Shown piece by piece: positions 22,060-24,244 of a stretch of 37,157 bases of DNA. The stretch is from contig JAAYQI010000180.1 of assembly GCA_012519385.1 (NCBI GenBank), forward strand, positions 1 through 37,157, read 5' to 3'. The DNA is from Candidatus Epulonipiscium sp. Its GTDB lineage: Bacteria; Bacillota; Clostridia; Lachnospirales; Anaerotignaceae. The first letter of the stretch is position 1. Every line of letters begins with the position of its first letter. The notes beneath the pieces are model-generated. The model was not told the DNA's origin, did not search any database, and was given only the letters and a program-made list of their open reading frames with translations. The translations under genes were made by a program, and so were the position numbers.

Positions 22060-22088
22060 TTGATAAATAGCTAGGTTAACGGTATAAT
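22060..22088 (+). promoter_or_regulatory. strong sigma-A promoter of an intergenic RNA
   Basis: TTGATA (22060-22065), 17 bases, TATAAT (22083-22088). No start codon with a binding site follows for almost 290 bases. The transcript starting near 22095 is therefore either a stand-alone RNA or a long leader of the downstream symporter gene. Confidence 0.85.
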
Positions 22089-22094
22089 TATCGT

Positions 22095-22290
22095 TAGTGC
22101 CTTAACAGGTAATTTAGCAAATAGTTCACAAAAGAAGTCGAGGGGGGTTTCTGACAAGTATGTGCAGGAATGGAGGCTTCTGATTGTGCATGGATTTACA
22201 ATTAGATATTGACCCCCCACTCTGGTTAATTTATATGAATAGAACTTTTTTAGTCTGAAATCAGGTGGCTTTTTTAAGACACCTTTTTTT
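22095..22290 (+). ncRNA. structured intergenic RNA of about 196 nt, class unknown
   Basis: The stretch lies between a near-consensus promoter and a terminator-like hairpin (GGTG..CTT / AAG..CACC, then seven T at 22284-22290). GTGCCTTA at 22097-22104 can pair with TAAGACAC at 22275-22282 with one mismatch, closing the whole molecule. This pairing shares bases with the terminator arm. Inside, GGGGGGT (22142-22148) pairs perfectly with ACCCCCC (22212-22218), enclosing further small stems. Size, closed ends and own promoter recall 6S RNA, but I cannot confirm the 6S sequence signature. The alternative is a transcription attenuator or riboswitch for the PutP-like symporter that starts 84 bases later. 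Confidence 0.5.
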
Positions 22291-22373
22291 ATTATTCAAA
22301 TTATGCTATGAAACCATACATCATTTGCTGATTGATTAACATTATACTATCAAAACAGGAGGGAAAAAGGGAT

Positions 22374-23855
22374 ATGACTTATATTATTATATTCGCTGTA
22401 TATATCCTACTTATGGTAGCCATTGGAATGTACTTTTCCAATAAAAATGAGAATATGTCTGACTATATTCTGGGAGGACGTTCTCTAAATGTTTGGGTTG
22501 CTTCTTTAAGTGCGCAGGCATCCGATATGAGCGGATGGCTTTTGACTGGCTTACCAGGGCTTGCATATGTATCTGCTGTTGGCTCCCAGGAGGCTATTTG
22601 GACAGCACTTGGACTTGCCATTGGTACATATTTAAACTGGTTGTTTGTAGCAAAACGTTTACGCCAATATACGGAGATTTGTGGAAATGCACTTACAATG
22701 CCAGATTATTTTGAACATCGTTTTATGGATGAAAGTAGAACGCTTAGAATTGTAACGGCATTATTTATACTGGTGTTTTTTCTGGTTTACACTTCCTCTG
22801 CCTTTGTTACGGCTGCAAAGCTATTCCGTACCGTATTTGGGATGAGTTATATGCAAGGACTGCTGTTGGGTGCAGTGATTGTAGTGATTTATACGTGCTT
22901 AGGCGGATTTAAAGCGGTATGCTGGACGGATTTATTCCAAGGAATACTTATGTTTATAGCAATATTGGTAATACCTGTAGTTGCTGCACGTGTGCTGGGC
23001 GGATTCCAGCCTGCACTTGAAACTGCCAGCACCCTTCATCCAGGTTCTTTGGATATTATACCAAATGGAGATAATATTTCTTGGTTTGTTGTAATTACTG
23101 GTTTGGGATGGGGTATTGGTTATTTTGGTCAGCCTCATATTCTGGCAAGGTTTATGGCGATTCGTTCTTCCAAAGAGGTAAGACCTGCAAGAATTATTGC
23201 AATGGTGTGGGTAACTGTTTCCTTGGCCTTTGCTATCTTAGTAGGTATTTTAGGAATTGCTTATTTGAATCCTCCTTTGGCGGCAGGTGAGCATGAAACT
23301 GTATTTATGAGAATGTCATTAGAGTTATTCCATCCGCTGATTGCAGGTGTATTATTATCTGCTATATTAGCTGCAACCATGAGTACAGCGGATTCTCAGC
23401 TATTGGTTACTGCTTCGGCTATTTCTGAAGACGTTTATAAAGCATTTATTAATCCCAAAGCAACCGATAAACAATTAATTACGATTAGTAAGATTACAGT
23501 TATAGTTGTTGCTATTATTGCTGTTATTATTGGTTTAAACCCTGAAAGTAGTATTTTTAAATTAGTAAGCTATGCTTGGGCAGGATTTGGTTCTGCTTTT
23601 GGCCCTACCATTGTATTATCACTTTATTGGAGAAGAATGACAAGAAAGGGAGCTATTGCTGGTGTCATCAGTGGTGGTACGGTATCTATTGTTTGGGGAA
23701 TGTTAAAATCTCTAGGTGGAATTTTCAGCATTTATGAAATTGTACCTGGTGTAATTGTTTCTGTGATTATGATTGTGGTTGTGAGTCTTATGGATGCTCC
23801 TCCAACACGTGAAATGACAGATAAATTTGATTCTTTAAAAAGCTGTAATATATAA
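22374..23855 (+). CDS. putP: sodium/proline symporter (PutP-type, SSS family)
   Basis: Imports proline, or a related solute, with Na+. At 493 residues with about 13 membrane helices it matches PutP length. Visible family motifs are the early SDYILGGRSL, LSAQASDMSGWLL (sodium and substrate site on helix 2), the GRFMAIRS-type loop ARFMAIRS, and AILAATMSTADSQLL (the second conserved sodium site). ATG 22374 is chosen because of AGGAGGG upstream; a longer in-frame reading has no binding site. It follows the structured RNA and is followed by its own hairpin. Proline uptake would suit Stickland-type amino acid fermentation, but no proline reductase genes are seen here. Confidence 0.92.
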   Translation: MTYIIIFAVYILLMVAIGMYFSNKNENMSDYILGGRSLNVWVASLSAQASDMSGWLLTGLPGLAYVSAVGSQEAIWTALGLAIGTYLNWLFVAKRLRQYTEICGNALTMPDYFEHRFMDESRTLRIVTALFILVFFLVYTSSAFVTAAKLFRTVFGMSYMQGLLLGAVIVVIYTCLGGFKAVCWTDLFQGILMFIAILVIPVVAARVLGGFQPALETASTLHPGSLDIIPNGDNISWFVVITGLGWGIGYFGQPHILARFMAIRSSKEVRPARIIAMVWVTVSLAFAILVGILGIAYLNPPLAAGEHETVFMRMSLELFHPLIAGVLLSAILAATMSTADSQLLVTASAISEDVYKAFINPKATDKQLITISKITVIVVAIIAVIIGLNPESSIFKLVSYAWAGFGSAFGPTIVLSLYWRRMTRKGAIAGVISGGTVSIVWGMLKSLGGIFSIYEIVPGVIVSVIMIVVVSLMDAPPTREMTDKFDSLKSCNI

Positions 23856-23950: not shown

Positions 23951-24244
23951 ATGATTATAGTAGTTGCAAAAAGCAATGTTTTGCCAGAAAAAAGAGAAGA
24001 ATTTTTGAAATTGGCAAGAGAAATGGAACAAAAAAGCCGTCAGGAAAGCGGATGCATCTCCTATACATTGTATGAAAGCATGGATAATCCCAATCAATTT
24101 TGCTATATTGAGTTATGGAAGGATGCAGGTGCCTTAAAGGCTCATAATAACAGTGCCCATTTTTTATCTTTGGTACCTAAAATGAATCAACTCAAAAAGG
24201 AACCTAGCCATGTGGAGCTATACCATGAGATAACAGAGCTATAA
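23951..24244 (+). CDS. ABM-domain protein (YgiN-like putative quinol monooxygenase)
   Basis: A 97-residue single-domain protein of the antibiotic biosynthesis monooxygenase (ABM) fold, a ferredoxin-like dimer. The pattern V-x-KSNVLPEKREEF at the start, ESGCISYTLYES in the middle and the FCYIELWKDAGALKAHNNS segment are typical. Members include quinol monooxygenases, heme-degrading enzymes and proteins without known activity; the substrate is unknown here. AAAGGAGG lies before the ATG and a terminator follows, so it is a single-gene unit. Confidence 0.85.
   Translation: MIIVVAKSNVLPEKREEFLKLAREMEQKSRQESGCISYTLYESMDNPNQFCYIELWKDAGALKAHNNSAHFLSLVPKMNQLKKEPSHVELYHEITEL

Follow-up and report, generated by a model that had tools for sequence, protein, structure and literature searches.

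The Predicted putP Leader and Its Transcription Signals

The window, that is, the whole stretch of 37,157 nucleotides analysed here, carries a predicted leader RNA flanked by a gene for an SNF-type sodium-dependent transporter on one side and by putP on the other. The relevant features are as follows.

22060..22088, plus strand: promoter TTGATA-N17-TATAAT, 11 of 12 consensus positions
22095..22290, plus strand: predicted leader RNA or terminated transcript, about 195 nt, from the positions of promoter and terminator
22130..22183, plus strand: conserved core (P1, internal loop, P2), from BLASTN and covariance models R1 and R2
22133..22139, plus strand: P1 5' strand AGAAGUC, predicted to pair with 22175-22181 (90.5% of cells paired, 2 two-sided changes)
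22140..22148, plus strand: G-run GAGGGGGGU in the internal loop, with the C-rich segment as predicted partner (RNAalifold consensus; duplex scan)
22148..22170, plus strand: P2 hairpin UUUCUG...CAGGAA (85% of cells paired, 1 two-sided change; RNAalifold consensus)
22175..22181, plus strand: P1 3' strand GGCUUCU, predicted to pair with 22133-22139
22179..22206, plus strand: P3 hairpin between P1 and the C-rich segment, from the minimum free energy (MFE) fold of the window
22212..22227, plus strand: C-rich segment ACCCCCCACUCUGGUU, putative shared switching strand, best upstream partner of the terminator 5' arm in all six leaders
22259..22268, plus strand: AAUCAGGUGG, putative antiterminator 3' strand and terminator 5' arm, within which CAGGUGGC is invariant in all six leaders
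22263..22291, plus strand: intrinsic terminator hairpin and U-run, from folds and from the RNAalifold consensus in relatives
22374..23855, plus strand: putP, sodium/proline symporter, 493 aa (NCBIfam TIGR02121 equivalog, 633 bits against a cut-off of 515.5)

Several elements that a sequence-only reading had proposed for this locus were indeed recovered, namely a near-perfect promoter, an inner stem GGGGGGT/ACCCCCC (22142-22148 with 22212-22218), which is paired in the MFE fold of the window, and a terminator after the element, the predicted length being close to the 196 nt first put forward. The terminator-like hairpin, AGGUGgCUU/AAGaCACCU at 22263-22284, is followed by a U-run, has an energy of about -7.6 kcal/mol, and was too imperfect to be called by a simple terminator scan of the window. 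Between this terminator and putP, no plus-strand promoter matching at least 9 of 12 positions was found in the window. The folding energy of the leader was unremarkable (z = -1.26; 21 of 200 shuffles folded equally well), so that the case for an element must rest on comparison, and the evidence that it is real is conservation rather than stability.

A Rare and Conserved Core

Homologues were indeed found upstream of putP genes, where that reading had suggested looking for them. BLASTN against 98 relatives detected the core in four genomes from one other genus of the same family, and covariance model R1, built on the core and run over 392 genomes of the order, returned those four, the window and a fifth relative, G033, all at E <= 2.8e-9 (G033 itself at 2.8e-9). 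A degenerate-pattern scan of 84,980 species returned the same five relatives, including Clostridium sp. MD294/ASF356 and Candidatus Coprocola pullicola. Of its 24 matches, the remaining 19 were set aside as unrelated, as were mismatched pattern matches in other genera (L009-L012, L018), since they lay in coding sequence or lacked the rest of the motif. Model R2 added nothing credible, whether across the class (391 genomes) or the phylum (300 genomes), and the weak covariance matches that were inspected in order, class and phylum (L025-L034, L104-L106) looked like chance and revealed no putP-linked leader. The element is thus rare, being known from six species after searches of the order, the class, the phylum and 84,980 species.

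The six leaders compared (the window, L002, L003, L004, L005 and L024) include five from one genus. All have a promoter 5' of the core, with TATAAT 33-54 nt upstream of it, and a terminator 3' of it. In terms of structure, 87.5% of cells in the predicted core pairing were paired overall, versus 40-56% in slid versions, with a C-A mismatch in P1 in three members. Covariation is thin, with six sequences of which five belong to one genus. When RNAalifold was given the six leaders with no structure supplied, it returned P2, the terminator and the helix between G-run and C-rich segment. This last helix would be a pseudoknot if P1 is formed, and an ordinary multibranch helix without P1. A hairpin can also be drawn at the P3 position in the relatives (by inspection, and in folds of L003). 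A G-quadruplex and a kink-turn were considered by eye for the G-rich loop and set aside, the spacing of G-runs and GA pairs being unfit for the standard forms.

Purifying selection on the core is clear from sequence comparison. Identity to the window in BLASTN reached 86-88% over 48 nt in three relatives and 79% over 59 nt in the fourth, G010, while fourfold sites of putP were only 34-44% identical between the window and the five genomes, thus near-saturated, and 40-46% identical between the window and genus g8.

Linkage to putP

The element lies directly 5' of putP, on the same strand, in all six genomes, and is the only significant copy per genome according to the covariance model. This linkage, like the conservation above and the alternative pairings below, was computed here. 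By contrast, the upstream neighbours are of three unrelated kinds: L002-L004 have a divergent EamA-type transporter there, L005 and L024 a gene for an ABC substrate-binding protein, and the window the SNF transporter. The sole common neighbour is putP, together with a small monooxygenase-like gene after it in the window, L049, L050 and L054.

Such linkage weighs against an independent small RNA that merely happens to precede putP and acts in trans or as a divergent 6S RNA, a reading which the element's own promoter, terminator and length of about 195 nt would allow and which we regard as highly improbable. Indeed, the copies stay tied to putP in six of six genomes while the upstream genes change. 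Moreover, all nine genomes checked have a 6S gene elsewhere that scores above the Rfam cut-off, among them the source genome (G000:C83:15404-15592, minus strand, 50.4 bits against a cut-off of 46.4), which excludes the 6S identity that had been named as the main alternative. In line with this, RF00013 gave no covariance match at the leader locus, an Rfam 15 scan at gathering thresholds, T-box and known riboswitches included, gave no match in the window, and at E <= 10 the leader gave only chance-level matches (E 1.9-8.8). The Rfam check that had been called for thus assigned the leader neither to 6S RNA nor to any other family.

Alternative Pairings of the C-Rich Segment

The switch as originally drawn was a closing helix in which the 5' end of the RNA, GTGCCTTA (22097-22104), pairs with the terminator 3' arm, TAAGACAC (22275-22282), so as to give read-through. 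Seven of eight pairs are possible in the window, but they include a C-A mismatch, amount to about -6 kcal/mol, which 13% of shuffles match or beat, and fall outside the MFE fold. In addition, the 5' arm is absent from all five relatives, where comparable pairing was at chance level (p 0.27-0.58), and the helix therefore has no counterpart there. We consider this version extremely improbable; comparison instead favours a C-rich segment that can pair either with the G-run or with the 5' arm of the terminator.

The 5' arm, which contains CAGGUGG in the window, has an unchanged CAGGUGGC in all six leaders, while both its partners vary. Its 3' partner in the terminator is GCUAUCUG, GCUGUCUG or GACACCU. 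Its predicted upstream partner gives CCAcUCUGGUU/AAUCAGG-UGG in the window, CCCCUGC/GCAGGuGG in L003, and CCUG-ACUC or CCUG-ACUU with GAGU-CAGG in L005 and L024. When transcripts were ended just past the arm, this antiterminator appeared in the predicted fold in four of six cases (L002, L003, L004 and L024). In four of six leaders the G-run, too, paired best with the C-rich segment, with a near tie in L005 (duplex scan and inspection). Taken singly, however, antiterminators were of modest strength versus dinucleotide shuffles (p 0.03-0.23), and the G-run pairing was clearly unusual in the window only (p 0.008). Support for the switch lies mainly in the use of the same position by three diverged leader types. 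In each of the six leaders, enforcing the terminator gave a fold 1.3-9.7 kcal/mol more stable than the one with the antiterminator, so switching would have to be kinetic, during transcription.

The leader of Candidatus Coprocola pullicola (G033, L024) keeps P2, the antiterminator and the terminator, and has lost the G-run, which now reads UAGAGAAAU. Under the proposed model, the helix that permits termination would be unable to form here, and this leader could be a natural loss-of-control variant.

Proposed Mechanism and Competing Explanations

The reading we hold to be probable is a cis-acting transcription attenuator in the putP 5' leader, whose C-rich segment would choose between two partners. 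The earlier proposal of a switch-type putP leader thus holds in outline, given putP in six of six genomes, the lack of an Rfam match and the mutually exclusive terminator pairings that can be drawn for every leader, but with a different switch. We infer transcription, switching, sensing, its direction and the ligand. From a mechanistic point of view, pairing of the C-rich segment (22212-22227) with the terminator 5' arm (22259-22268) would form an antiterminator and permit read-through into putP, whereas its capture by the G-run of the core (22140-22148) would free the arm and let the terminator form. Most likely, a signal, either a small molecule or an ion, would stabilise the G-run/C-run state and turn putP off. 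The core is most likely the sensor, no other long block being strongly conserved. For an uptake gene, the obvious candidate signal is proline or a cue related to it, and the same function of putP favours an OFF response when the signal is in excess. A switch that turns ON by stabilising P1/P2 may also be envisaged, since nascent folds of L002, L003 and L024 combine P1, P2 and the antiterminator.

The strongest rival keeps the same attenuator anatomy and makes the core a site for an RNA-binding protein, or a small RNA, in place of a small-molecule aptamer; we consider it unlikely. A protein site would agree with the element's narrow, one-clade distribution and with its short conserved loop rich in purines, and the data do not distinguish this from a ligand-binding RNA, but no candidate protein gene lies consistently beside the element.

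Ribosome-mediated attenuation, in which GGAGG of the core would serve as a ribosome-binding site and proline codons in the C-rich segment would stall the ribosome when prolyl-tRNA is scarce, seems very unlikely. The window could encode a leader peptide, since at 22183-22257 a 24-aa frame opens with UUG behind GGAGG and places Pro-Pro at the C-run (UUG UGC AUG ... GAC CCC CCA), and by inspection L002, L003, L005 and L024 can be read from AUG GAG GCN, a proline falling close to the C-run. The peptide is, however, not conserved in the relatives: L002-L004 have no ATG, GTG or TTG at a usable distance after GGAGG, one-base deletions in L004 shorten the AUG frame to 6 codons relative to its close relative L003, and the core itself shows 2-nt length differences. 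Of the conserved ORF, start, ribosome-binding site and regulatory codons of a leader-peptide attenuator, neither a conserved start nor a conserved frame was found.

Returning to the attenuator with two partners for its C-rich segment, the best reading is a new, narrowly distributed putP attenuator, possibly a riboswitch. As in riboswitches, a conserved core precedes functionally consistent genes (putP in six of six), and computation gives mutually exclusive structures in the expression platform, with the G-run pairing lost in L024. The more specific proposal, that the core is the aptamer of a new riboswitch class sensing proline, a proline-derived compound or sodium and turning off the sodium/proline symporter, appears quite unlikely. 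A literature search for the phrase "proline riboswitch" found no paper containing it.

Comparison with Known Systems

Terminating riboswitches likewise combine a compact conserved core, a strand shared between core pairing and antiterminator, an intrinsic terminator and a transporter gene. The putP leader differs in that it matches no Rfam family at gathering or at a meaningful E-value, and is known from only six species. The Na+ riboswitch (DUF1646 motif) controls sodium-related transport genes in bacteria including Firmicutes and, in the studied example, uses an intrinsic terminator overlapped by aptamer P2, the ligand turning expression on (PMC9337991). The putP leader gave no covariance match to it and shares a C-rich strand downstream of the core instead. 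Guanidine-IV and its variant Gd4v consist of two hairpins in pseudoknot-type contact, of which the 3' one serves as terminator, and are described as turning expression on upstream of sugE, MATE, GNAT or transaminase genes (PMC9788692); the putP leader resembles them in the layout of hairpin, contact and terminator, but not by covariance match. The opuB and proX candidates are orphans located before osmolyte or proline-betaine transporters, and the proX motif, mainly found in Spiribacter, is described as exerting translational (RBS) control (PMC11109978, PMC8632094). They precede other genes, and were compared with the putP leader through the Rfam scan. Finally, 6S RNA has a similar length and its own promoter, and differs from the putP leader in the latter's tie to putP and in the presence of a separate 6S gene.

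If proline were sensed, a common amino acid would gain a new riboswitch class, one present in gut Clostridia. Among these is Clostridium sp. MD294/ASF356, whose complete genome makes it a practical test organism. If something else were sensed, the leader would still represent a new family of attenuators whose target gene is clear and whose switch can be tested.

Related putP Loci and Neighbouring Genes

PutP of a third genus, g8, is 74-80% identical at the protein level, and the conserved leader was looked for upstream of its gene and is absent. The branching of g1, g8 and g11 is not resolved by the PutP tree, so that gain and loss of the leader are indistinguishable. The putP leaders of genus g8 (L074, L075 and L081) carry a different, short hairpin, which in L075 and L081 has a CAGG/CCUG-type stem, a GTATRCGTCAA loop and no clear terminator. 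In a search for proline reductase PrdA, control genomes were likewise without any match. The small protein encoded after putP (23951-24241 in the window; also L049, L050 and L054) presumably has an antibiotic-biosynthesis-monooxygenase fold, and it matched an LsrG-type isomerase model weakly.
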